From positions 1-36,437 of the forward strand of contig JAUIKF010000073.1 in assembly GCA_030430575.1 (NCBI GenBank): a stretch of DNA of 36,437 bases, in the 5' to 3' direction. Both the position numbers and the translations under genes were made by a program. This DNA comes from Bacteroidia bacterium (GTDB lineage Bacteria > Bacteroidota > Bacteroidia > J057). Numbering within the stretch: position 1 is the stretch's first letter; the number at the start of each line of letters is the position of its first letter. The notes under the pieces were generated by a model, which made no database searches, was not told where the DNA came from, and saw only the letters and a list, made by a program, of their open reading frames with translations. Of this stretch, positions 2,074 through 34,964 are shown one piece after another.

Positions 2074-2148
2074 ATGGTCAAATTTCTACCTTCTATTATA
2101 GCAAACACTTCACTATTTTTGGAGCAAATTGACCTGACGTATTTTTTT

Positions 2149-4458
2149 ATGAAAAAACAGCTTTTTGCCCTTTTCCTCAGCCTGCTGATTCTCTCTAGTC
2201 CCTTATTGGCTCAAAACCGCTTGGGAATCGGCGAGTGGCGTACCTACCTGAGCCACAACTCTGTGCGCCAGTGTGTAGAAAAAGATGGAACTATCTATGC
2301 CATCACACAAGGAGGCATGTTTACCTTCAATGACAGTACCAAGGAGATCAAAACCTACTCTACCATTGAAGGACTCAGCAGTACTGAGCCTACGACGATC
2401 TTCTCGGACAATATAAGCGGCCTGATCTTCATTGGTTATGCCGACGGTACCATCAATTTTTTCTCTGACCCCTCTGAGATCCGCTACCTCACCGATATTC
2501 GGCGTAACGATTTTTTCACGCAAAAGCGCATCAATCAGTTTGACAGCGATGGGGCGAAGCTATATGTCGCAACAGATTTTGGCATCGTGGTCTATCGCCT
2601 GTGGACTTTCCTGACGGAGTTTACCATTACCCAGTTTGGGGAAAATCCTTCCAAAGAGCCTGTAAATTCCCTTGCAGTAAACCAAGGGTCTCTATGGGCC
2701 AGTCTGGGGGATTTGGGCCTTTTCCATGCACCACTCAATTCCATTAACCTGACAGACCCTTCTGTATGGACCAGAGAAGATGGCTCAAATGAGCTTCCCA
2801 TCACGAATGTGCTTGAGCTGGCAAGTTGGAAAAACAGACTTTTTGCCCGCGTTGATACCACTGTCTATAAGCAAACGGATGGCGGTCAATGGGCGATTGA
2901 CCCTATCCTCGATAAACCTTGGGACTATTTGTCTTCTCAAAATAATGCCCTCACCGCATCCAAAAATGCCGCCACAGTCGTGTTCCCAAATGATGGAAGT
3001 GCATACCAGTATTCAACCGAAGGGAAGGTCGTCCATTCCGTTCATACTGGCAAGGGGCTTACCTTCCTCGCTAATGAATTTGGCAGCCTCCAGCGGCACC
3101 AAAAAGAACAAACCCATGAACTCATCTCTCCTGATGGGCCACTAAATAATAACGCAACAAGGATTGTAGCTGGGAATGGAGAATTTTATGTGGCCCCTAA
3201 AGGCTATGATGATGGATTTAACCCTGTGGCTGATGGAAGTGGCATCTACTATTATAGCGACGATACAGGATGGGAAATCCTTAATGGACGAAATGGAGGC
3301 CTCCCTGAAACAGGGGTGAATGAACGTTTTGCCCGCGCACTCTACAACCCCAATACCCGCCAAGCCTATATTGGTTCTTGGGGACGCGGGATCGCTCGCC
3401 TCAAAGATGGCGTTCTGGAAGAAGTCTATGACTGTAGCAATTCTGGACTCAGCTATGTCGTCGGCAATACTTGCGACCTCAACAATGCTGTCAATACCCG
3501 CGTGAGCGGCATTGCAGAAGATCCTCAAGGCAATATCTGGGTCACTCAGTCTTTTGCTCAGCGTCCACTAGCTGTCATGACCACAACAGGAGAGTGGTAT
3601 AACTATCCAGGAAACCTCTTCCCTGACGCCAATATGATCGACTTGATTGTAGATGACTATGGGAGTAAATGGATTTTGAGTAGGAAAAATGGGGTAGTTG
3701 TGTTTAATGAAAATGGCACATTTGACAATACGGCAGATGACATCATTGTGAAGCTCACCTCAGGGCTCAATCTAGGGGACCTGCCTTCAGACAATGTGCT
3801 CTCTATCGCCAAAGATAAAGACGGCTTTATCTGGGTGGGGACAGACATCGGTGTGACCGTCTTCTTTGATCCCTTCACGGTCTCTCAAGGCCAGCGCGTA
3901 GACGCTAGCTGCCCTGTCTTTGAGTTGCGTTGCCTCCTCAAAGATGAGCAGATCAACGCCATCGCCGTAGATGGGGGTAACCGCAAGTGGATGGCTACGG
4001 ACAACGGCGTCTTCCTCGTCTCCGAAGATGGCGACGAATTGATTCACAATTTCACTACAGATAATAGTCCCTTATTGTCAAATAGCGTCTTGGACGTGAG
4101 CATCGATGGCAGCACAGGAGAAGTATTTTTCGCCACAGAAAAAGGTCTGATCTCCTATCAAGGTGACGCCACGGAAGGTTCCACCGACTGCAAAGATGTA
4201 TTGGTATTTCCCAATCCCGTTTTCCAATCCTTTGACGGCCAAATCAGCATCAAAGGCTCTGCATCTGCCTCCAAAGTCCGTATTACGACCGCTTCCGGCA
4301 TGCTCGTGCGTGAACTCACTGCCCAAGGGGGCACCGCCACCTGGGACGGCTATGACCTCTACGGCAACAAAGTTGCCTCAGGCATCTATCTCGCACTCAT
4401 TTCTCGTGATGACGGGACGAAGGGATGTGTGGGGAAATTCTCGATTTTAAATCGGTAG
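2149..4458 (+). CDS. porZ: type IX secretion system component PorZ
   Basis: 769 residues from the ATG at 2149. An upstream in-frame ATG at 2074 sits in the terminator's T-run and would add 25 residues ahead of a clear signal peptide (MKKQLFALFLSLLILSSPLLAQ), so it is rejected. The mature protein starts LGIGEWRTYLSHNSV and then has repeated propeller blades: GTIYAITQGGMFTF, SGLIFIGYADGTINFF, GNIWVTQ, GFIWVGTDIGVTVF, RKWMATDNGVFLV, GEVFFATEKGL. It ends with a ~85-residue C-terminal domain (VLVFPNPVF...ASGIYLALIS) resembling T9SS sorting domains. This is the PorZ layout: two beta-propellers plus a CTD-like fold. In Porphyromonas gingivalis PorZ is a surface partner of the PorU sortase and delivers anionic LPS for cargo attachment. 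The gene stands alone here. A T9SS cargo protein is encoded at 25502-28858. Confidence 0.85.
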   Translation: MKKQLFALFLSLLILSSPLLAQNRLGIGEWRTYLSHNSVRQCVEKDGTIYAITQGGMFTFNDSTKEIKTYSTIEGLSSTEPTTIFSDNISGLIFIGYADGTINFFSDPSEIRYLTDIRRNDFFTQKRINQFDSDGAKLYVATDFGIVVYRLWTFLTEFTITQFGENPSKEPVNSLAVNQGSLWASLGDLGLFHAPLNSINLTDPSVWTREDGSNELPITNVLELASWKNRLFARVDTTVYKQTDGGQWAIDPILDKPWDYLSSQNNALTASKNAATVVFPNDGSAYQYSTEGKVVHSVHTGKGLTFLANEFGSLQRHQKEQTHELISPDGPLNNNATRIVAGNGEFYVAPKGYDDGFNPVADGSGIYYYSDDTGWEILNGRNGGLPETGVNERFARALYNPNTRQAYIGSWGRGIARLKDGVLEEVYDCSNSGLSYVVGNTCDLNNAVNTRVSGIAEDPQGNIWVTQSFAQRPLAVMTTTGEWYNYPGNLFPDANMIDLIVDDYGSKWILSRKNGVVVFNENGTFDNTADDIIVKLTSGLNLGDLPSDNVLSIAKDKDGFIWVGTDIGVTVFFDPFTVSQGQRVDASCPVFELRCLLKDEQINAIAVDGGNRKWMATDNGVFLVSEDGDELIHNFTTDNSPLLSNSVLDVSIDGSTGEVFFATEKGLISYQGDATEGSTDCKDVLVFPNPVFQSFDGQISIKGSASASKVRITTASGMLVRELTAQGGTATWDGYDLYGNKVASGIYLALISRDDGTKGCVGKFSILNR

Positions 4459-4488
4459 GGGAAAATTCTGAGGGTCTGAGTGAGAAGA

Positions 4489-5148: not shown

Positions 5149-7314
5149 TCACCGCCGCCCTCTCCTAGGCGGCCCATTCCCCTCCGGCTTCAGAGACAAA
5201 CTAATCCGCTTACGCTGCACATCCACCTCCACGACGCGTGCGCTGACCTTTTGGTTCACCTTCACCACGTCACTCGGATGCTTGATGAAACGGTTGGCGA
5301 GCTGACTGATATGGGCAAGGCCGTCCTGATGGACGCCGATGTCGATGAATGCGCCGAAGTCCGCCACATTGGTGACGATACCTGGGAGCCACATGCCAGG
5401 CACGAGGTCGTCCATCGTATTGACACGCTCATCGAAGCTAAACGCTTCGAACTGCTCCCGCGGATCGCGGCCAGGTTTGGCCAGCTCGGCCATGATGTCT
5501 TGAAGCGTGGGAAGCCCCACAGACTCGGTCGTATAATCCTTCAGGCGAATTTGCTTACGTAAATCTTCCTGCGCCATCAAATCCGCGACCTTTACCCCCA
5601 GGTCTTTGGCCATTTGCTCCACAATATGATAACTCTCAGGATGCACTGAGCTCGAATCTAACGGATGCTTAGCATCGTGTATGCGAAGAAAGCCAGCAGC
5701 TTGTTCGAAGGCTTTCGGGCCTAGGCGTGGCACTTTTTTGAGTTGAGCACGCGATTTGAAGGGCCCATTTTCGTTGCGGTAATTGATGATGTTTTGGGCT
5801 AAAACAGGCCCTAGACCCGACACATAAGTCAGCAATTGCTTACTGGCCGTATTGACCTCCACCCCTACAGCATTCACACAGGACATCACGGTATCATCCA
5901 GGCTCTTTTTGAGCAAAGTTTGATCTACATCGTGCTGGTATTGTCCCACCCCAATCGACTTGGGGTCAATTTTCACCAGTTCCGCTAGGGGGTCCATGAG
6001 TCTGCGACCGATAGAGACAGCGCCACGCACGGTTACGTCCTTGTCCGGAAATTCTTCCCGGGCAGCCTGGGAAGCCGAATAGATGGAAGCGCCGCTTTCA
6101 TTGACCATAACGACCTGGATATATTTTGGCAGGCGGCAGCTTTTGACAAAATTCTCCGTCTCGCGGCTGGCTGTGCCGTTACCAATGGCGATGGCTTGTA
6201 TGCGAAAGCGTTCTACCAAGTCGTGAAGCGTCGCTTCAGATCGCAGGGTCTCCCGTTGAGGGGGATGTGGATAAATGGTGGTGAAGTGCTCAAATTGCCC
6301 TTGCGCGTCCAAGCAGACCACCTTGCATCCTGTCCGGAAGCCTGGGTCTATGGCCATCACGCGCTTCTGGCCGAGTGGGGCAGCCATGAGCAGTTCGCGC
6401 AGGTTTTGGGCAAATACATTGATCGCATCTTCATCTGCACGATCCTTGCTCCAAATTCGAATTTCTGTCTCCATCGACGGGGCAAGGAGACGCTTGTAAC
6501 TGTCTTGGACAGCCATTTTCACCTGATCCGCCGCTTCTCCACGTCCAACCACATGCTGTCGAGACATCAAGTAGATCGCCTCTTCTGCCTCAGGCGCAAT
6601 CGTCAGCGCCAGCACAAGTTCTTTTTCACCTCGCCTCAAGGCCAGCATTCTATGGGAAGGAATGACCATGACGCGCTCATCCCATTCAAAATAATCTTTG
6701 AATTTTTGTCCTTCCGCTTCTTTCCCCTTGATCACCTTCGCCTTCACCGCTCCACTGCGCACATACAGCCTCCGTACCGTATCCCGCGTCTTGGCGTCTT
6801 CGTTCACTTTCTCCGCAATGATGTCACGTGCGCCTTGTAAGGCTTCCTCCAGCGTCTCTACACCTTTCTCTACATCAATATATTTGGCAGCCTCGGCCAT
6901 GATGTCCGATGATAGCTTCTGGTCATAGACAAGATTTGCTAATGGTTCCAAGCCTTTTTCACGGGCGATGGTAGCGCGGGTGCGGCGTTTGGGTCGGTAG
7001 GGTAAATAAATGTCTTCCAACTCCGTGAGGGTCGTCGCAGACATGATGGCAGCTTTCAGCTCATCTGTCAAGAGATCGCGTTCTTCCAGGGAAGCGAGAA
7101 TGGCTTCACGCCGCTTATCAAGGGCCGCAAGGGCTTCCGACTTGTCGCGGATCGCCGCGATCTGTACCTCATCCAGACTCCCTGTCACCTCTTTGCGGTA
7201 ACGGGAGATAAAAGGAATCGTCGCGCCTTCTTCCAGCAGCTTGATCGTCGCCGCCACTTGCCGTTCGCTGATGCCTAACTCCTTGGCGATCAGTTGTATG
7301 TGTTTATCAATCAT
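5149..7314 (-). CDS. tex: Tex family RNA-binding transcription accessory protein
   Basis: 721 residues, full length for Tex. The N-terminal helical domain starts IAKELGISERQVAATIKLLEEGATIPFIS, with the family signature RYRKEVTGSLDE. A YqgF/RNase-H-like domain follows at about 325-420 (KRVMAIDPGFRTGCKVVCLD). A helix-hairpin-helix region at about 480-560 includes VEVNTASKQLL, YVSGLGPVLAQNIINYR and LKKVPRLGPKAFEQAAGFLRI. A C-terminal S1 domain spans about 635-705 (GIVTNVADFGAFIDIGVHQDGLAHISQL). Tex binds nucleic acid and acts in transcription or RNA handling in the cytoplasm. Its exact role is unsettled. The gene lies downstream of the M42 peptidase gene on the same strand, separated by a GTCTGANN hairpin. 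Confidence 0.95.
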   Translation of the reverse strand: MIDKHIQLIAKELGISERQVAATIKLLEEGATIPFISRYRKEVTGSLDEVQIAAIRDKSEALAALDKRREAILASLEERDLLTDELKAAIMSATTLTELEDIYLPYRPKRRTRATIAREKGLEPLANLVYDQKLSSDIMAEAAKYIDVEKGVETLEEALQGARDIIAEKVNEDAKTRDTVRRLYVRSGAVKAKVIKGKEAEGQKFKDYFEWDERVMVIPSHRMLALRRGEKELVLALTIAPEAEEAIYLMSRQHVVGRGEAADQVKMAVQDSYKRLLAPSMETEIRIWSKDRADEDAINVFAQNLRELLMAAPLGQKRVMAIDPGFRTGCKVVCLDAQGQFEHFTTIYPHPPQRETLRSEATLHDLVERFRIQAIAIGNGTASRETENFVKSCRLPKYIQVVMVNESGASIYSASQAAREEFPDKDVTVRGAVSIGRRLMDPLAELVKIDPKSIGVGQYQHDVDQTLLKKSLDDTVMSCVNAVGVEVNTASKQLLTYVSGLGPVLAQNIINYRNENGPFKSRAQLKKVPRLGPKAFEQAAGFLRIHDAKHPLDSSSVHPESYHIVEQMAKDLGVKVADLMAQEDLRKQIRLKDYTTESVGLPTLQDIMAELAKPGRDPREQFEAFSFDERVNTMDDLVPGMWLPGIVTNVADFGAFIDIGVHQDGLAHISQLANRFIKHPSDVVKVNQKVSARVVEVDVQRKRISLSLKPEGNGPPRRGRR

Positions 7315-7329
7315 ATTGCAGAAAGTTTA

Positions 7330-7404
7330 ACGTCTGAGGGTCTGAAAGTCTGATGGTTGATTGTTCTTATCGTTCAGACGCTCAGACCATCAGACGTTCA
7401 GACG
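7330..7404. repeat. hairpin made of GTCTGANN octamers (locus B)
   Basis: The left arm has three tandem units (GTCTGAGG, GTCTGAAA, GTCTGATG). The right arm, read on the other strand, has GTCTGAAC, GTCTGATG, GTCTGAGC and GTCTGAAC. The arms pair over some 24-27 nt with mismatches only at the variable positions. It fills the space between the M42 peptidase stop and the tex start and may end the peptidase transcript. Confidence 0.8.
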
Positions 7405-7409
7405 TGGTT

Positions 7410-8450
7410 TTACCATTCTTCTTGAAACTCATCCATTCGCTCCACGCATGCTTTTAACAAAGTGATACATCCCTGCACATCTTCTTGGTGGACCATTTCT
7501 ACCACAGAGTGGATATGACGTGTGGGCACGGAGATACAGCCTACAATGGCTCCATCGCCTGAGCGCTGAAGGGCCCCTGTGTCGGTGCCCCCTCTCGGAA
7601 GAATTTCTCGCTGGAAGATAATACCTGCTTCCTCAGCCATTTTTTCCATAAACCGCACCATCCGAATATCCGTCACTACAGATGAGTCATAGATTTTGAT
7701 GGCTGCACCTTTGCCAAGAGATGTGACCATCTCGTGGGCTTTGGCGCTTGGGGTATCATTGGCGATGGTGGTGTCGAGGCCTATCCCAATGTCGGGATTA
7801 AGTGCACGGGTGACAGCAGTGGCTCCCCTAAGGCCTACTTCCTCCTGTACGGTGAATACCGCATAGAAGTCATGGGCTGGCGTAGTCATCGTTTTGAGGG
7901 CTTCTATGAGGATAAAAACCGAGATTCGGTTGTCGAGGGATTTGGAGGAGACGCAGTCGCCTAAGACGATCAAATCCCGATCTCGGGTCACGACATCACC
8001 TACGGAGACCCATTTGATCACCTCCTCATAAGGCAGGCCAAAATCGATGAAATAGTCCTTGATCTGAGGCGGTTTTTTACGGTCCTCTGGGGACATGATG
8101 TGAATGGGCTTGCTGCCCATAACGCCCATCATCTCACGCTTGCCGTGAACGATGACGCGCTGCGCCGTCAGGGTCTTGGGGTCAAATCCCCCCAAGGTAT
8201 GAAAACGGGCATAGCCATTGCTCCCTATATGGGTGACCATGAAAGCGATTTCATCCATATGGGCCGCAGCCATGACCTTCTTGCGCGTCTTGCCTTTTTT
8301 GAGGGCTACGACATTTCCCATATTGTCGACATAAAGGTCGTCAACCCACGGGCGGACTTCCTCGATGACACGACGACGGATCGGTTCTTCTCTTCCTGGT
8401 GCACCTGGCAGGCTACACAGTTCACTCAATAGGTCTATGGCTAAAGGCAT
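7410..8450 (-). CDS. M42 family metallo-aminopeptidase
   Basis: 346 residues, the usual length for the M42 (CelM/YsdC/glutamyl aminopeptidase) family. The expected metal ligands and catalytic residues are visible: H64 and D66 (AAAHMDE), D173 (LDNRIS), E203 and E204 (VQEEVGLRGA), D226 (GLDTT) and H314 (RHIHSV). The dimetal site removes N-terminal residues from peptides, and relatives form large cytoplasmic tetrahedral dodecamers. There is no signal peptide (MPLAIDLLSELCSLPGAPGRE). Some M42 members are annotated as endoglucanases, but peptidase activity is the better-supported reading. The gene has its own upstream space of 268 nt, shared with the divergent OmpA-type lipoprotein gene. Confidence 0.9.
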   Translation of the reverse strand: MPLAIDLLSELCSLPGAPGREEPIRRRVIEEVRPWVDDLYVDNMGNVVALKKGKTRKKVMAAAHMDEIAFMVTHIGSNGYARFHTLGGFDPKTLTAQRVIVHGKREMMGVMGSKPIHIMSPEDRKKPPQIKDYFIDFGLPYEEVIKWVSVGDVVTRDRDLIVLGDCVSSKSLDNRISVFILIEALKTMTTPAHDFYAVFTVQEEVGLRGATAVTRALNPDIGIGLDTTIANDTPSAKAHEMVTSLGKGAAIKIYDSSVVTDIRMVRFMEKMAEEAGIIFQREILPRGGTDTGALQRSGDGAIVGCISVPTRHIHSVVEMVHQEDVQGCITLLKACVERMDEFQEEW

Positions 8451-9675: not shown

Positions 9676-11064
9676 GTGGCTTGGCTGTTCTTATGGTCGC
9701 CTGCACCGATCAGTGACTTTGCGGATTATATGGAATTGGCGGGGGCATTGGTAAATGGGGAAGGCTATTCGGTCAATGGGGCAGCTACTGCTTTCCGTGC
9801 ACCTGGGTATCCTGCATTTTTGGCGGGATTATTTGCTGTATTTGGGGTGAAGGTCTGGGTGGGCCAGCTTGCCAACCTCCTCTTGGCGGGAATCGCCATG
9901 TGGCTGGTGTATCATGTCAGCAAAATGATTTTTGCAGATGAAGGAACAGGACGCATCGCCCTGCTCCTGATGACTCTCCACCCTAATGGCATCGCCTATA
10001 CGTCCTTGCTGTCGACAGAATTGCTTTTTGTGGTTTTGTTGCTGGCAGGGGTGGCGTGTGGGTTGCGAATGAAAGCGCATTGGGGCTGGCTGGTTGCTGC
10101 AGGACTGGCCTTTGGGCTGGCGACGTATGTGAAGCCGCAGGCGGTGCTGGTGCCTTTGGTGCTTTTGCTGGGGGGCTGGATTACGCGCAGAGCCGTCCCT
10201 TCAACCCCTTCGACCCCTTCGACAAGCTCAGGGGTCTCAGGGGTCTCAGGGGCCTCAGGGGCCTCATCCGGAAATCCAGCCCAGGGCATAAATATGCGCC
10301 CAGCCAAAGCTTCCTCATGGAAGCTGGCGTGGATTTCGGCTGTGTGGGGCTGGTTTGTGGGTAATCCACGCCTCGAAGGCGGGGTGCTGAAAGCGGCCTT
10401 TCGAGCTATGCGGCATCGCCGGGAGCCACAGCTTTTGCTGGCCTTCATCTTCACCGTTTTGGTGATTAGTCCGTGGGCTTTGCGGAACGCCTCTTATTTT
10501 GGCACCAATCCTCACCTCACGACCAACGGCGGCTCTAATTTGCTTGTAGGCAACAATCCTCATTCCAATGGAAAGTACAAATGGGGCACGGCAGAAGAAG
10601 CATTTTTGGCTCCTTTTGTCTCAAAAAGTCTTAATGAAGCTGAGCGGGATCAGGTTGCGGGTAAGGTCGCCTGGCAATATATCAAGGATCATCCTGGCCA
10701 GTTCCTAGCGCGAATACCGCTGAAGCTATGGCGATGTTATGCGTGGGATGTTGAGGGGTTGGACTGGGTACGGGAAGGGTGCGGAGGGCTCACAGGTTGG
10801 CGCCATCAGGTGATGCGTATTTGGAAAGCGTGGGCGCAGGTGTTTTATGTAGGCCTCCTCGTTCTTTTTGGCCTTTCGTTTTTTGCTAAATCTTCATTAA
10901 AAACCCCTTATTTCTATTGGGGAATTGCCCTGATACTGTACTTCAGTGTGGTGGTGATGGTGTTTTTTGGGGATGGGCGGTTTCACTTTCCTGTGTTGCC
11001 GTGGGTGATGATGTATGCGGCGGAAAGAATCAAAATTGAAATGAAAATTAAAATCAAAGTATGA
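9676..11064 (+). CDS. GT39/PMT-like polytopic membrane glycosyltransferase
   Basis: 462 residues from a GTG. The protein resembles ArnT/PMT-type glycosyltransferases: an acidic first loop (ISDFADYMELAGALVNGEGY), the signature FRAPGYPAFLA, and about eight to ten membrane segments. Such enzymes use polyprenyl-phosphate sugars to modify lipids or proteins at the outer face of the inner membrane. The start is unresolved. The frame is open upstream to 9562 and encodes a convincing continuation (HNFLKHPRFLPLCIAFGLLLR) with no ATG, GTG or TTG, so the true start may be a rare codon (ATT at 9610) or be hidden by a frameshift. Residues ~175-199 (PSTPSTPSTSSGVSGVSGASGASSG) are encoded by an inserted palindromic repeat. 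The C-terminus (KIEMKIKIKV) lies in a period-6 hairpin shared with nuoM. Confidence 0.75.
   Translation: MAWLFLWSPAPISDFADYMELAGALVNGEGYSVNGAATAFRAPGYPAFLAGLFAVFGVKVWVGQLANLLLAGIAMWLVYHVSKMIFADEGTGRIALLLMTLHPNGIAYTSLLSTELLFVVLLLAGVACGLRMKAHWGWLVAAGLAFGLATYVKPQAVLVPLVLLLGGWITRRAVPSTPSTPSTSSGVSGVSGASGASSGNPAQGINMRPAKASSWKLAWISAVWGWFVGNPRLEGGVLKAAFRAMRHRREPQLLLAFIFTVLVISPWALRNASYFGTNPHLTTNGGSNLLVGNNPHSNGKYKWGTAEEAFLAPFVSKSLNEAERDQVAGKVAWQYIKDHPGQFLARIPLKLWRCYAWDVEGLDWVREGCGGLTGWRHQVMRIWKAWAQVFYVGLLVLFGLSFFAKSSLKTPYFYWGIALILYFSVVVMVFFGDGRFHFPVLPWVMMYAAERIKIEMKIKIKV
10200..10266. repeat. in-frame repeat insertion inside the glycosyltransferase gene
   Basis: Centred on CCCTTCGACAAGCTCAGGG (10215-10233). 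It is preceded by 9-nt units of the form CCCTTCRAC and followed by four 9-nt units (TCAGGGGTC twice, TCAGGGGCC twice). All units are multiples of three, so the frame survives and yields a Ser/Gly/Pro/Thr-rich loop. The core matches the copies at 9531-9547 and 25334-25355. Confidence 0.8.
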
Positions 11065-11106
11065 GGCGGCTTTTTGATTTTAATTTAGATTTTCATTTTT
11101 ATTTCC
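11036..11106. terminator. period-6 AT-rich hairpin overlapping the 3' ends of two convergent genes
   Basis: The left arm (AAAATT/GAAATG/AAAATT/AAAATC units) codes the last residues of the glycosyltransferase. The right arm, read on the minus strand (AAAAAT/GAAAAT/CTAAAT/TAAAAT/CAAAAA units), codes the last residues of NuoM. The stops are at 11062-11064 and 11080-11082. Both strands have long T-runs, so it may act as a bidirectional terminator. Confidence 0.65.
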
Positions 11107-12642
11107 CACCTCCCCATCAGCCCTCGGAGGCAATTCACTTGTCGTTTCTTGCTGGACAAGCGGTGCGGTGCTTTGGTCGATGTGCTTGAGGAATGGGGTG
11201 GCATGCAGCCCGATCCAGAACATGAGGATGACGAGGGGCAATAGCAGCCCCATTTCGCGCCAGTTGAGGTCGGGCAAGTTTTTGAGGTCGTCTCTTTCTG
11301 CCCCGAATAGGACCTTACGGGTCATATTGAGCAGGTAAATGGCGGCGAAGATCACGCCGAGAGCTGCGAGGGCCGTCAGGACTTTGCTACCTGCCACGCT
11401 AGCGCCGAAGGCGCCTAGGAGAATCATGAATTCGCCCACAAATCCGCTTAGGCCTGGAAGGCCTACGGAGGCCATGACGCTCAGGACAAAGAGAAATGCG
11501 AAGTAGGGCAATTGCTTGGCGATGCCCTGGTAGTCGCTGATCATGCGACTGCGACCTCGATCTTCGATCATGCCGACAAGGAAGAACAGCGCAGCTGCGC
11601 CGATACCGTGGGCTACCATTTGCAGGACAGCTCCGCTCAGTGCCTGGCCTTGCATCACGAAGATGCCCAAGGCGATGAAGCCCATGTGCGAAAGCGATGA
11701 ATACGCTAGGAGGCGCTTCATGTCTTTTTGGGCGAATGCAGCCATCGCACCGTAGAGGATGCCGATCACGGCGAGGATAGCCATGATGGGGGCATATTCG
11801 GCAAAGCTATCAGGGAATAATGGGAGACAAAAGCGGATGAGGCCGTAAACGCCCATCTTGGACAGCAAGGCTGCCATGATGATGGTACCCGTCGTGGACG
11901 ATTCTGCGTAGGCATCTGCCTGCCAGGTATGGAAAGGGAAGATGGGTGCTTTGATCGCGAAGCTGATCGCGAAGGCAAGGAATAACCAGCCTTGCACACT
12001 AGGATCGAAACCCGCCTTCAATAGGGCAAAGTAATCTGTCGTAAAAATGCCCGGCACTGCAGCCATTCCCATATACAATATGGCAATTAGCATCAGAAGT
12101 GAGCCTGCCAACGTGTAGAGGAAAAATTTGATCGCCGCATATTGTCTGCGTTCGCTTCCCCAAATGCCGATGAAGAAGATCGATGGGATCAGGACCAATT
12201 CGAAGAATACATAGAACAACAGAAGATCCATAGACAAGAAAAAGCCGATAATGGCCGTCTCCATGAGCATGAGCATGACGTAGTACATGCGGACTTGCTT
12301 GCTCACTTTATTCCACGAATACAGCAAAATCAAGGGAAACAAGAGCGTCGTCATCAGAACGAGGTAAAGCGATATGCCATCGATGCCAAGAGCAAAGTTG
12401 ACATTGTACCCAGGTCCTGCGATCCACTCGACGGCATGATAAAAGCTGTAGCCGTCTTGGCCAAATGCTTCACCACCCATGAGAGGTCCTAGGAGGAAGA
12501 GGCTGAGGATAAAGGGTACCAATGACGCTGTAAACGCTGCTACTTTTGCCGTTTCCGCTTTGAATAAAGCGATTACGGGGATTGCCGCCAAAGGGGCAAA
12601 TAGCAGGAGGTATACCAAGGAGATGACCGTACTTTTGTCCAT
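11080..12642 (-). CDS. nuoM: NADH-quinone oxidoreductase subunit M
   Basis: 520 residues with about 14 membrane helices. The family's TM5 glutamate is present in FELVLIPSIFFIGIWGSERR (E148, matching E144 of E. coli NuoM). Further conserved parts are the discontinuous-helix region KAPIFPFHTWQADAYAESST, LAYSSLSHMGFIALGI and LPGLSGFVGEFMILLGAF. NuoM is one of the antiporter-like proton-pumping subunits of respiratory complex I in the inner membrane. The gene is not beside nuoL, nuoN or any other nuo gene in this window, and its own promoter-like site lies at 12668-12698. The last ~20 residues (ETTSELPPRADGEVGNKNENLN) go beyond the membrane part. The final GNKNENLN comes from the period-6 intergenic repeat. 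Confidence 0.95.
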   Translation of the reverse strand: MDKSTVISLVYLLLFAPLAAIPVIALFKAETAKVAAFTASLVPFILSLFLLGPLMGGEAFGQDGYSFYHAVEWIAGPGYNVNFALGIDGISLYLVLMTTLLFPLILLYSWNKVSKQVRMYYVMLMLMETAIIGFFLSMDLLLFYVFFELVLIPSIFFIGIWGSERRQYAAIKFFLYTLAGSLLMLIAILYMGMAAVPGIFTTDYFALLKAGFDPSVQGWLFLAFAISFAIKAPIFPFHTWQADAYAESSTTGTIIMAALLSKMGVYGLIRFCLPLFPDSFAEYAPIMAILAVIGILYGAMAAFAQKDMKRLLAYSSLSHMGFIALGIFVMQGQALSGAVLQMVAHGIGAAALFFLVGMIEDRGRSRMISDYQGIAKQLPYFAFLFVLSVMASVGLPGLSGFVGEFMILLGAFGASVAGSKVLTALAALGVIFAAIYLLNMTRKVLFGAERDDLKNLPDLNWREMGLLLPLVILMFWIGLHATPFLKHIDQSTAPLVQQETTSELPPRADGEVGNKNENLN

Positions 12643-14613: not shown

Positions 14614-14707
14614 GAGAGAAATGGCATATCGTTCAAAAAGGGGTAAGTCGTTCAAAGGAATTCAAGTCACTCAACACCCAAGGAAAAGATTCTCTTAGAA
14701 CGTAGAA

Positions 14708-14741
14708 CCCTGAACTCTGAACTCTGAACCTTTGAACTTTC
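14708..14741. repeat. period-7 GAACTCT-like tract
   Basis: Units GAACCCT, GAACTCT, GAACTCT, GAACCTTT, GAACTTT in a row, ending just before the stop of the neighbouring Omp28-like gene. No inverted arm is seen. It is one of several short-unit tracts that fill spaces between genes in this window. Confidence 0.6.
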
Positions 14742-16661: not shown

Positions 16662-16711
16662 GTCTGAAAGTCTGATGACCTGAGCGTTAAGGCTATTCCA
16701 ATCAAACGCTC
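16662..16711. repeat. partial GTCTGANN array (locus C)
   Basis: GTCTGAAA, GTCTGATG and ACCTGAGC in tandem (16662-16685), then a short inverted pair GAGCGTT (16682-16688) and AACGCTC (16705-16711). It lies between the DUF6029-like stop and the Omp28 copy 1 start. It looks like a decayed version of the hairpins at 7330 and 34865. Confidence 0.6.
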
Positions 16712-19994: not shown

Positions 19995-20157
19995 AAAATG
20001 AAAATTAAACTCAAAATTAAAAATCACCTGCCTGCTTGACCTAATGACAGCAAATAGGAAGAGATATTGTATGGGGAGGGAAATTAAAACTCAAATTCAA
20101 GTTCAAAAAAGAAGGTTTGAGTTTGAGTTTGTATTTGAGCTTGAACTTGAATTTTTC
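19995..20157. repeat. period-6 AT-rich tract and hairpin between yqgE-type and tlpA-type genes
   Basis: At 19995-20025, AAAATN-like hexamers in one direction. At 20083-20157, a hairpin: left arm AATTAAAACTCAAATTCAAGTTCAAA, right arm reading on the other strand as AAATTC, AAGTTC, AAGCTC, AAATAC, AAACTC, AAACTC. The hairpin begins right after the YqgE-type stop and likely ends that transcript. Confidence 0.7.
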
Positions 20158-20158
20158 C

Positions 20159-20722
20159 TTAGTTTAATCTGGGATCTACAGGGTAATTGGAAATGACGCG
20201 ATATTTTTCGCCCATACCACGCAGGATATTCTTCCAGAGGTCTTCATATTCTCCATCAAAAATATAGGCATCATTTTGAGGAGCGATGATCCATGATTTG
20301 CGTTCAAGCTCTTCAAATAGCTGACCTGGCGACCAGCCAGAATAGCCTACAAAAAAGAGGACTTCCTCCTCAGACGCTTCTCCAGAGCGGATCATTTCTT
20401 TGAGTTGATCGAAGTCCCCACTCCAATACAGATCACCACTGATATGGCGACTTCCGCTCAGTTGCTCTCCGAGGCGGTGCACATAGTGCAATGTATTTTG
20501 CTCTACAGGCCCTCCTAAAAAGACAGGGGAATCAAAATCATCCAAGTCTTCTACAATTTCATGTATACCTGCTTTCAACTGTCGATTCATAACAAAGCCG
20601 AGACTTCCATCCTCTCCATGCTCTACCAACAGCACCACCGTCCTCCGAAAATTGGGGTCTCCCATGAAGGGCTCTGATACTAAAAATCTGCCAGGTCCAG
20701 GTTTGAATTTACTTGTAATCAT
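20159..20722 (-). CDS. YqgE/AlgH family protein
   Basis: 187 residues from the ATG at 20720-20722, giving MITSKFKPGPGRFLVSEP. The frame's earlier ATG (20785) adds 21 residues without similarity to the family. Family hallmarks are GRFLVSEPFMGDPNFRRTVVLLVEHGEDGSLGFVMNR at the start, PVFLGGPVEQNTLHYVHR in the middle, then FFVGYSGWSPGQLFEELERKSWI. The length is that of the family. The fold is known from structures, but the biochemical role is not settled. It is cytoplasmic. It is divergent from the EamA permease gene, with 108 nt between starts. Confidence 0.9.
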   Translation of the reverse strand: MITSKFKPGPGRFLVSEPFMGDPNFRRTVVLLVEHGEDGSLGFVMNRQLKAGIHEIVEDLDDFDSPVFLGGPVEQNTLHYVHRLGEQLSGSRHISGDLYWSGDFDQLKEMIRSGEASEEEVLFFVGYSGWSPGQLFEELERKSWIIAPQNDAYIFDGEYEDLWKNILRGMGEKYRVISNYPVDPRLN

Positions 20723-20807
20723 AGGGAATGAAAAATTGCAATTTATGTCGATCTTTCCTAGAAAAAAACCAGTTTTTTCCAACACCGATTCTTTGGTGAG
20801 TTATTCC

Positions 20808-32265: not shown

Positions 32266-34860
32266 ATGAAGATGTTTTATCATCACATCAAGACATTTCC
32301 CAAAATCTTATTCCTAGTCATCGGCCTCTTATATGGAGAAAATGCTGTTGCACAGCGCAATCTCAAGTCAAGTGCGCCCATGCGCTCTCTCAGTTCAGCC
32401 GAAATCCAAGAGAGTTTGCGCAAAGTTCAAGTACTAGGCAGTGTCCTCTACATGGCAGCCCACCCCGACGATGAGAACACCCGCCTCATCGCATACCTCA
32501 CCAACGGACGTGGCTATCACACCACCTACCTATCCATGACTCGTGGGGATGGGGGGCAAAACCTGATTGGCACCGAAAAAGGGCCTGACTTAGGCGTATT
32601 GCGAACCCAGGAGCTCCTTGCAGCTCGTAACATTGATGGAGGCCATCAGCGCTTCACCCGCGCCATAGACTTTGGCTACTCCAAAAACCCTGAAGAAACC
32701 CTCGAAATATGGGATAGAGAAGCCATCCTATGTGATGCTGTCATGACCATTCGTGAATTGAGGCCCGATGTCATTGTGACACGTTTTCCTGGTCCAGAAG
32801 ATGGCGGTGGTGGTCATGGGCACCATACTTCATCTTACATATTGGCGCGAGAAGCCTTTGACAAGGCAGCAGATGCTAGCTTCCACCCCGAGCTTGGGGC
32901 ACCCTGGCAGGTAGAACGCCTGATGTGGAATTCCTGGCGGCCATACTGGGACAAAAACTTTGACATTGAGAAGTCGGACCTGCTACAGATAGACATAGGC
33001 GAATACAATGCGATACTAGGCATGAGCTATGGAGAAATCGCTTCCCTGGCACGCAGTCAACATAAATGCCAGGACTTTGGGACCTATCGCCAACGTGGGC
33101 CTCGTATGGAGTATTTAGAGCACAAGGCAGGCACCAAGCCTAGTGAAGACTTCTTTGAAGGCATAGATGCGACTTGGAGTCGCCTCAAAGGTGGCGAAAA
33201 AGTAGGAGAAATTTTGGCCAAAGCAGCCAATAATTATAATTCGAGAAACCCTGAAACTATCGTTCCCACTTTGATAGAAGCCTATCAGGCTACAGAAGAG
33301 CTAGCAGACAGCCGCTGGAAGCAGATCAAGCAAGAGGAGATCAAAGACCTCATCGCTCAGTGTAGCGGCCTATGGCTAGAAGCCCTCACCGACGAGGCCA
33401 CGGCTTGCCTGGGGGATAGTTTTGGAGTGAGCACTATGGTGCTCAAGCGTTCATCAGTAGCTGCTAGTTGTACCAAAGTAACTTATAGGTGGAATTTCAC
33501 AGATGAATTAGCAGTTTCAGAAGGTGGCGACAATAAGGAAATAATTTTCGAAAGCGCTGAGCTGGGGAATAATGTCCCTTTAACCGATGAGCGGATGTTG
33601 GCACTGCCCAACAAGGTTTCCGCAAAAATGCCCGTTCCTACCCAACCCTACTGGCTCACAAAACCTGCGAGAAAAGGGATTTACCAAGTAGAACACGCAT
33701 CACTTCTTGGCTTGCCTGAAACCCCCGCAGCCATTTATGCAACCTTCGACATTACTTTTGGAACGGACGATCCTGTTACGATTTCTTATGACCTTCCTGT
33801 AGTTCACAAATACGTGAATCGCGCCGTGGGAGAGATGTATCGTCCGTTTCAGATTACGCCTAAAGTGACGGTCAATATCAATGAAAAAGTCTTGCTCTTT
33901 GCAGATGAAACCCCTCAACAGGTTTCCATTTTGATCAAAGCACATTCCGCGAATCCTACCCAGGGTACGCTTGCCTTCAATTTGCCAGAAGGATGGAACG
34001 TGGAGCCTTCAACCATCAAGCTAGACTTTTCGCAAAAAGGGGAAGAAATGCCCGTCAACCTTACGGTGACGCCTCCGGCTACCCAAAGCGTGGGACCACT
34101 GATCGCGATGGTCCAGATAGATGGAGAGGAAGGCGTAAGTTCTTTTAGCTTGAAAACGATCGAATACGGACATATCCCTACTCAACTGATATTCCCCCCA
34201 TCAGAGACCCGCCTTGTCAAAATTGACATCAAAAAGTCTGGAAATAAAATTGGCTATATCATGGGATCGGGAGATGAAGTCCCAGTATGTTTGGAACAAG
34301 TCGGCTATCAAGTGACATTGCTCGAAGACGATGACATCACGGTAGAGAACCTCAAGCAATACGATGCGATCGTGGCGGGTATCCGCGCTTATAATACGCG
34401 CAAGCGTATGGGATTCATGCAGCCTCAATTGCTGAAGTATGTAGAAGCAGGGGGAACCTATATCGTCCAATACAATAAGTCTCGCGGGCTAGCAACCGAA
34501 CAGCCAGGGCCATACCCTATCACTATATCTCGCGATCGCGTGACAGTGGAAGAAGCCCCTGTCAAGATGCTCGTACCTGACCACGAGATTTTCAACTCCC
34601 CTAATAAAATCACCAATGCTGACTTTGATGGGTGGATACAGGAGCGTGGGCTCTATTTTCCCAATGAATGGGATGAAAAATATACTGCCTTGACTGCTTG
34701 TAATGACCCCGGCGAGACTTCAAAAGAAGGCGCTCTATTGATCGCAGAGTATGGCAAAGGCCATTTTATTTATACTGGCTATAGCTGGTTCAGAGAACTC
34801 CCCGCAGGGGTACCAGGTGCTTATCGGATATTTGCCAATATGCTTTCAGTAGGGAAATAA
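32266..34860 (+). CDS. large secreted PIG-L/LmbE-family deacetylase
   Basis: 864 residues. Signal peptide with a hydrophobic core ILFLVIGLLYG and a likely cleavage after AVAQ. Residues ~55-280 are the PIG-L deacetylase domain: the metal motif MAAHPDDE (H66, D68, D69), GDGGQNLIG and PGPEDGGGGHGHHTSS (H184, H186, H187). The middle (~400-640) is beta-rich and Ig-like, including an NPCBM/NEW2-like part (VSILIKAHSANPTQGTLAFNLPEGW). The last ~210 residues (GDEVPVCLEQVGYQVTLLEDDDITVENLKQYDAIVAGIRAYNT) are ThuA/GATase-like without an obvious nucleophile. Family members remove N-acetyl groups from amino sugars such as GlcNAc derivatives. Its secreted form points to extracellular or envelope polysaccharide. 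No T9SS sorting domain is visible. Confidence 0.85.
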   Translation: MKMFYHHIKTFPKILFLVIGLLYGENAVAQRNLKSSAPMRSLSSAEIQESLRKVQVLGSVLYMAAHPDDENTRLIAYLTNGRGYHTTYLSMTRGDGGQNLIGTEKGPDLGVLRTQELLAARNIDGGHQRFTRAIDFGYSKNPEETLEIWDREAILCDAVMTIRELRPDVIVTRFPGPEDGGGGHGHHTSSYILAREAFDKAADASFHPELGAPWQVERLMWNSWRPYWDKNFDIEKSDLLQIDIGEYNAILGMSYGEIASLARSQHKCQDFGTYRQRGPRMEYLEHKAGTKPSEDFFEGIDATWSRLKGGEKVGEILAKAANNYNSRNPETIVPTLIEAYQATEELADSRWKQIKQEEIKDLIAQCSGLWLEALTDEATACLGDSFGVSTMVLKRSSVAASCTKVTYRWNFTDELAVSEGGDNKEIIFESAELGNNVPLTDERMLALPNKVSAKMPVPTQPYWLTKPARKGIYQVEHASLLGLPETPAAIYATFDITFGTDDPVTISYDLPVVHKYVNRAVGEMYRPFQITPKVTVNINEKVLLFADETPQQVSILIKAHSANPTQGTLAFNLPEGWNVEPSTIKLDFSQKGEEMPVNLTVTPPATQSVGPLIAMVQIDGEEGVSSFSLKTIEYGHIPTQLIFPPSETRLVKIDIKKSGNKIGYIMGSGDEVPVCLEQVGYQVTLLEDDDITVENLKQYDAIVAGIRAYNTRKRMGFMQPQLLKYVEAGGTYIVQYNKSRGLATEQPGPYPITISRDRVTVEEAPVKMLVPDHEIFNSPNKITNADFDGWIQERGLYFPNEWDEKYTALTACNDPGETSKEGALLIAEYGKGHFIYTGYSWFRELPAGVPGAYRIFANMLSVGK

Positions 34861-34864
34861 AATA

Positions 34865-34952
34865 ACGTCTGAGCGTCTGATTGTCTGAAAGTCTAAATAT
34901 CTGTATTATAAGAGAACAATCAGACTTTCAGACGTTCGGACGTTCAGACAAC
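34865..34952. repeat. hairpin made of GTCTGANN octamers (locus D)
   Basis: Left arm: GTCTGAGC, GTCTGATT, GTCTGAAA, GTCTAAAT. Right arm on the other strand: GTCTGAAC, GTCCGAAC, GTCTGAAA, GTCTGATT. A loop of about 20 nt separates them. It begins 5 nt after the PIG-L stop, so it likely acts as a transcript end. Same family as 7330-7404. Confidence 0.8.
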
Positions 34953-34964
34953 CCGTCTTACTCA

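Follow-up and report, generated by a model that had tools for sequence, protein, structure and literature searches.

The genome of the Bacteroidia bacterium analyzed here carries numerous hairpins with arms that are tandem arrays of a short word. They are anchored mostly to stop codons, several different words are in use in the same genome, and at the corresponding junctions of a congeneric species an array of another word is found or none. These word arrays belong, as a variant, to the class of short intergenic repeats, and their function is a matter of prediction. The best mechanism we can offer, with a probability of about 0.42, is that of a putative mRNA 3'-end or intercistronic hairpin in which a sequence-specific factor that differs between species would hold the word constant.

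The window, i.e. the whole stretch of 36,437 nt that was analyzed, is contig C116 of a host genome (G000) of 8.16 Mb in 127 contigs. Its elements and their neighboring genes are given below; the word-blind detector mentioned there takes 24-nt windows of period 5–10 with an inverted partner within 160 bp.

4466..4479, plus strand: remnant with one exact and one one-mismatch unit, shortly past the stop of ORF 2074-4458 (plus strand)
5149-7314, minus strand: Tex ORF (Pfam Tex domains)
7325..7410, minus strand: whole first hairpin, bordered by the stop side of the M42 peptidase and by the Tex ORF
7332..7353, plus strand: left arm, GTCTGANN three times, exact units starting at 7332, 7340 and 7348
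7374..7403, minus strand: right arm, four exact GTCTGANN units, separated by 6 nt from the end of the M42-peptidase ORF that carries the stop
7410-8450, minus strand: M42-peptidase ORF (Pfam Peptidase_M42)
11026..11098, no strand assigned: hairpin made of A-rich AAAATN hexamers (a different word), at the junction of the convergent ORFs 9676-11064 and 11080-12642 (word-blind detector and context)
14705..14738, no strand assigned: one-armed heptamer array, GAACTCT-like (Tandem Repeats Finder and sequence)
16662..16675, plus strand: decayed element, two units exact; its neighbors are the DUF6029 ORF, with its stop facing the element, and the Omp28 ORF (each on the minus strand)
20077..20140, no strand assigned: hairpin made of TCAARN hexamers (a different word), lying 18 nt from the stop end of ORF 20159-20785 (minus strand; word-blind detector and context)
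34867..34949, plus strand: second full hairpin with four units per arm, 6 nt past the stop of ORF 32266-34860 (plus strand)

The arms of the first hairpin (7332-7403) enclose a loop of 20 nt, and the RNA of 7325..7410, taken in gene direction, is predicted to fold with -34.8 kcal/mol (z -6.8). An earlier sequence-only reading of this DNA had located a second copy with four units per arm at 34865-34952. This is borne out by the hairpin at 34867-34949, in which one unit per arm deviates by one base; the predicted RNA fold of 34860-34955 reaches -46.4 kcal/mol (z -9.3). The weak copy suspected at 4467-4478 corresponds to the remnant listed above, and the three units read at 16662-16685 reduce to two exact ones, as the next in-phase hexamer, ACCTGA, is two bases off and the right arm has decayed. 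Two-unit matches with at most one mismatch occur 13 times in the window, 0.11 being expected from shuffles, and Rfam returned no match in the window at the gathering score of any family. The window further contains a 26-bp tandem repeat of 2.7 copies close to the contig end (36318-36388), 9-bp tandem repeats within ORF 9676-11064 (10197-10266) and, among its proteins, a PorZ domain (type 9 secretion system), which suggests Bacteroidota.

Arrays of GTCTGA recur throughout the host genome, mostly as hairpins of fixed polarity. Overlapping matches of two GTCTGANN units number 161 in the whole genome, against 7 for the reversed pattern, and for three units the figures are 68 and 1. The observation behind the sequence-only reading is confirmed by this and is larger than first stated: a repeat family had been suggested, and the outcome that would speak against it, only a few copies, is clearly not what the genome shows. 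A sample of 807 kb of the host genome, with the window included and partly picked around GTCTGA hits (its tiled part comprises 520 kb), contains 243 convergent and 23 divergent pairs of GTCTGA and TCAGAC within 120 bp, about 9 of each being expected from word frequency. None of the other 59 relatives searched (one from the same genus, 11 from the same family) has the three-unit GTCTGANN pattern. Among 395 genomes drawn from the whole class, five other than the host match it, with 1, 1, 3, 5 and 6 matches. A scan of genome contigs for two-plus-two hairpins, from which the host or very near records were possibly excluded, found seven contigs, four from Bacteroidota, with one stretch each; the design thus occurs elsewhere at low copy, in some cases with GTCTGAAG-like units. 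Three GTCTGA units are matched by 25 viral contigs.

The arms are built according to a rather strict plan. Two or more exact units occur in 57 arms of the 807 kb; as many as 36 of these have exactly four, six have two, eight have three and seven have five or more. Units with at most one mismatch have the core GTCTGA 184 times, GTCCGA 22, GTTTGA 15, GCCTGA 5 and others 7 times, and 42 of the 49 one-base core changes are pyrimidine transitions, namely the GTCCGA, GTTTGA and GCCTGA cases. The two spacer bases remain unpaired between the arms (31/134 matched in the outer register versus 41 after shuffling, 36 versus 39.5 in the inner one); spacer runs are common to different loci 42 times with 47.6 expected, i.e. 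there is no sharing; and adjacent spacers in four-unit arms are alike in 9/72 cases versus 8.0 shuffled. Compensatory pairing of spacers can be ruled out, as none was found between arms, and so can copying between loci by template switching, as no spacer runs are held in common. Thus, from the earlier description of a fixed core GTCTGA with two free bases, the second half stands, the free bases even varying independently, and the first does not, for the core varies too. The idea that pairing tolerates changes solely at the free positions falls on both sides, with cores that vary and free bases that are not paired. GTCCGA would form a C-A mismatch with TCAGAC, and therefore pairing is apparently not strictly guarded. 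With spacers independent between units, arms and loci, we infer a constraint on the word itself, because copying, slippage and pure selection for pairing would each leave other traces. C is the first spacer base in only one of 108 cases in GTCTGA arms; it is rare or absent as first free base in the 5' arms of the GTCTGA, GAATGA, GTTCAG and GTTTCG families, and occurs in 6/74 cases in GTTCTA.

Replication slippage could have made the arrays, with selection for gene-end hairpins keeping the inverted pairs. Some homogeneous arrays such as (GTCTGAGC)13 indeed look like slippage, GTTTTGG runs are present in the host, and over all arms, long ones included, adjacent spacers are alike in 28/117 cases versus 12.9 expected. 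Nevertheless, neighbors in four-unit arms are no more alike than after shuffling, arm lengths peak at four units, and local slippage leaves unexplained why one word is common to unrelated loci. We consider this origin quite unlikely for the family in general: unlike a slippage microsatellite it has mainly four-unit arms with independent spacers, and growth by units, which had been suggested for the family, lacks support as a general rule.

Loops were found by inspection to be dissimilar across loci, with the exception of a small composite subgroup. In these composite elements TCAARN hexamers lie next to or within a GTCTGA array (L019:4700-4849, L035:10149-10331, L036:310-371, L054:14304-14402), and several of them are 83–91% alike over about 70–120 bp, partly via common GTCTGAGC units.

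The position relative to genes (longest-ORF calls by script, uncurated) is the second characteristic of these elements. Irrespective of the word, 65 arrays were placed: 38 in co-directional, 8 in convergent and 4 in divergent gaps, with 12 more located within ORFs and 3 at the ends of stretches. The co-directional arrays start at most 20 nt past the upstream stop in 28/38 cases, in agreement with the location just after stop codons that had been suggested from the sequence, and end at most 20 nt before the next start in 14/38. Where at least 60 nt were free, 10/15 are at most 25 nt away from the stop and 0/15 at most 25 nt away from the next start, the expectation being 2.6 in either case. In convergent gaps the distance to both stops is 25 nt or less for 6/8 arrays. 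In several cases (e.g., L035, L053, L054) a unit itself provides the stop codon with its TGA. Provision of stop codons as the purpose of the word was rejected by inspection, 5' arms of GTTTCGN and TCAARN being without any. Divergent gaps of 60–400 bp in the host sample carry period arrays in 18/61 cases, and therefore stop anchoring is not universal.

Ordinary intrinsic terminators would be expected at such positions, and the strong predicted folds (z -4.3 for the RNA of the element between CcmE and CcmF) as well as a 3' flank with 60% T over 8 nt fit them. They are, however, very unlikely as a general explanation. The stem word is common to different loci genome-wide, a difference from ordinary terminators which the sequence-only reading had rightly pointed out, and arrays are also inserted into kinase genes. 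Even in co-directional gaps the A content of the 5' flank equals the T content of the 3' flank (60% A in the 8 nt before and 60% T in the 8 nt after 17 co-directional GTCTGA elements), and in several co-directional cases the space left on each side for a new promoter is below 20 nt. A simple terminator scan of window positions 7000-8000, which permits loops of 3–8 only, did not report the element at 7332-7403. In another Bacteroidota metagenome-assembled genome a GTCTGAAG hairpin (L017:1417-1484) lies directly upstream of what by eye is an ordinary-looking terminator, and therefore the array itself is not the terminator there.

GTCTGA is only one word of several; the others, like the different words of the congener, had escaped the sequence-only reading. 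The word-blind detector yielded 54 clusters in the 807 kb of the host, a few of which are not such word hairpins (e.g., the intragenic 9-mers at 10194). Samples of 200 kb gave 7 clusters in the congener G001, 2 in G005 and none in G003 or G007, and block-shuffled controls of all five genomes gave none. The host words include GTCTGANN, GAATGANN, GTTCTAN, GTTCARN and TCAARN; those of G001 are the GTTCTAN-like GTTTCGN, GCAGTNN and GCAGATNN; and G005 has GTGTTNGN. None of these words is common to two genomes in the sampled stretches. Outside them TCAARN-like hexamers occur in G001 too, and therefore the dialects are not fully private. By period alone, arrays were detected in 70/202 co-directional gaps of 60–400 bp in the host (1.2 in shuffled sequence) and in 38/124 of those in the less biased, tiled part; the same measure gave 10/58 in G001, 2/44 in G003, 2/34 in G005 and 0/65 in G007. 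Four-unit GTTTYGN arrays are concentrated in G001, with 1069 overlapping matches there (reversed 36), 98 in the host (reversed 97), nearly all of them, among the matches listed, homogeneous GTTTTGG or GTTTTGA, and one in the other 58 genomes. The host also has a family of nearly fixed sequence, aaccaTATAAG ... CTTATAtggtt, with 9 clusters in 807 kb (sites at L021:2707, L022:13445, L027:5844, L035:12054, L037:2263, L038:5200, L046:5128 and L048:18574), which is more MITE-like than the word arrays.

For the comparison with G001 34 array junctions were tested and flanking pieces were searched for 20 (7 + 13, two of them one-sided), which left 10 host array junctions comparable, with the same neighbor genes in the congener. 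Five of these hold an array of another word there, i.e. the GTTTCG/CGAAAC type in three cases, including the junction between CcmE and CcmF (gene names read from the sequences), TCAAAC hexamers in one and GAGANNN heptamers in one. The other five are array-free in G001, and four of them are gaps of 10–52 bp, i.e. empty sites. Arrays are found at 15/125 co-directional junctions of G001 in general (Fisher p 0.007 versus 5/10, post hoc), and with gaps of at least 60 bp at 13/63 versus 5/6 comparable junctions (p 0.004, post hoc); the junction sample is small and was chosen after the fact, and of 15 control junctions two were comparable, neither with an array. For five host junctions followed in G003, G005, G007 and G008, none of 17 junction-genome pairs has an array. 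The G001 counterpart of the junction at L051:8328, where the host has a hexamer array, contains a long hairpin of ordinary appearance, flanked by A and T (L233). The M42 gene of the window was searched separately and has an ortholog with 64–68% identity in 6/7 relatives searched, G001 having only a 30% homolog. In the loci fetched around these orthologs no match to tex was found, and therefore an empty-site comparison is not available at the window element.

Several arrays are situated in frame within histidine kinases, in one loop of the ATPase domain, which we take to be the one between the N and G1 boxes. Such loops carry a period array in 10/14 cases in the 807 kb of the host, and the kinases differ in the word (GTCTGA, GTTCTA or GTTCAG). 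GCAGT words stand in the same loop of two G001 kinases; two HATPase loops of a 220-kb G001 sample are without an array. With arrays the host loops measure 36–39 aa, in contrast with mostly 21–25 aa in array-free loops of other genera (28 of 30 loci examined, motif found in 23); loops above 25 aa without an array were seen by eye in G002, G005 and G008. All three GTCTGA inserts have GTCCGA as their second unit, at a position at which GTCTGA would give an in-phase stop.

Empty sites and the shorter, array-free kinase loops of most other genera are what a selfish palindromic element of the REP, RPE or MITE kind would leave if it inserted anywhere and survived at gene ends and in permissive protein loops, and a few composite copies (L019, L035, L036, L054) are alike. 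We nevertheless regard such an element as unlikely. Loops differ and spacer runs are unshared, unlike in copies of one element; apart from the small composite subgroup these word arrays have, in contrast with MITEs or other copied mobile elements, no sequence in common along their length; and 10/15 arrays sit at the stop although room exists elsewhere. The three Y1-transposase loci (PF01797) of the host, one of them near a contig end, have neither a tandem GTCTGA pair in about 1.5 kb of flanks nor any other of ten words tested. Alternatively, an enzyme could write the words, i.e. a reverse transcriptase or other template-guided polymerase with a templated core, loosely templated spacers and its own template in each species. 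The constant core with independent spacers, the typical unit number, the species-private words and the replacement by another word at the same junction would all follow from it; the inverted second arm, however, requires a further step, and the search for candidate enzymes covered PF01797 only. We rate its involvement as a long shot.

Rickettsia palindromic elements are tolerated in frame inside proteins, as the arrays in kinases appear to be. To our knowledge they have no word-array arms, and the placement described here differs in being mostly at stop codons. Cyanobacterial STRR heptamers resemble our arrays in forming several short degenerate tandem word families per genome; we know of no paired inverted arms at stop codons among them. 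GTCTGA is contained in the canonical DNA uptake sequence (DUS) of Neisseria. The DUS of Neisseriaceae are species-specific words of which inverted pairs can form stem-loops and are associated with terminators (PMC3630211), so that species dialects and inverted pairs near gene ends would both agree with an uptake function. Unlike with DUS (PMC3630211), isolated words are not in excess here (299 GTCTGA outside arrays versus 329 expected in 807 kb) and the arms are tandems of mostly four units, so uptake words are highly improbable.

The nearest kind of lineage-private intergenic word is the TAACTGA heptamer of Beggiatoaceae, cyanobacteria and some Bacteroidetes, the direct repeats of which are spacer-free, without predicted structure and in the focal genome mostly located just upstream of start codons (PMC4679880). 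Compared with these repeats (PMC4679880), the present arrays have inverted arms, free spacer bases, stop-codon anchoring and several words per genome; a triple TAACTGA does not occur in the 807 kb of the host. The likeness to REP/RAYT systems consists of short, many-copy intergenic hairpins, some of them within genes, and the difference of the missing full-length sequence in common and the missing tie to Y1-transposase loci (PMC3733652). By eye no GTAG/CGTC end tag stands out in the flanks of the elements. Slippage, REP/RAYT and uptake words thus each fail one test here. Searches of the open-access literature, judged by the titles and abstract openings they returned, yielded no description of word-built hairpins at stop codons.

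Under the preferred mechanism of a gene-end hairpin, the two arms, each a tandem of mostly four words facing the same word inverted, would pair in the mRNA in blocks of about 6 bp split by small internal loops, resulting in a putative stem some 30 bp long in which the upstream gene would end. This stem may act as a barrier that slows 3'-to-5' decay, aids partial termination or processing and separates neighboring genes. A role as transcript ends or binding arrays, as suggested by the sequence-only reading, would agree with position and predicted folding. Beyond pairing, the word would be kept by a species-specific factor, giving each species its own dialect, and the kinase inserts may be by-products that a permissive loop tolerates. 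Activity in RNA, the barrier and the word-reading factor are thus proposed because of stop anchoring, strong folds, the four-unit peak, the constant core with free spacers and the change of word in place. Several observations fit this proposal less well: in-frame kinase arrays are ill-suited to a 3'-end role unless they are by-products, arrays occur in divergent gaps, the commonest core variant, GTCCGA, would weaken pairing, half of the comparable G001 junctions are array-free, and a genome with several words would call for more than one reader or for a single reader of low selectivity.

A more far-reaching and rather doubtful reading assumes a dedicated system that writes or maintains species words as post-stop hairpins, the vocabulary of which would be swapped wholesale between congeners with many positions kept, either via a polymerase templated with the word or via an RNA-binding factor that reads it and has from scores to hundreds of targets in a genome. 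The word hairpins are a hint that gene ends are marked or protected in a way not described so far. Roughly one third of the sampled co-directional gaps of 60–400 bp carry arrays, chiefly of a small number of species-specific words. Should a factor read these words, this would represent a large post-transcriptional network, and if they are written, a DNA-writing activity of an unknown kind. The different words at the same junctions of two congeners make this question directly testable.
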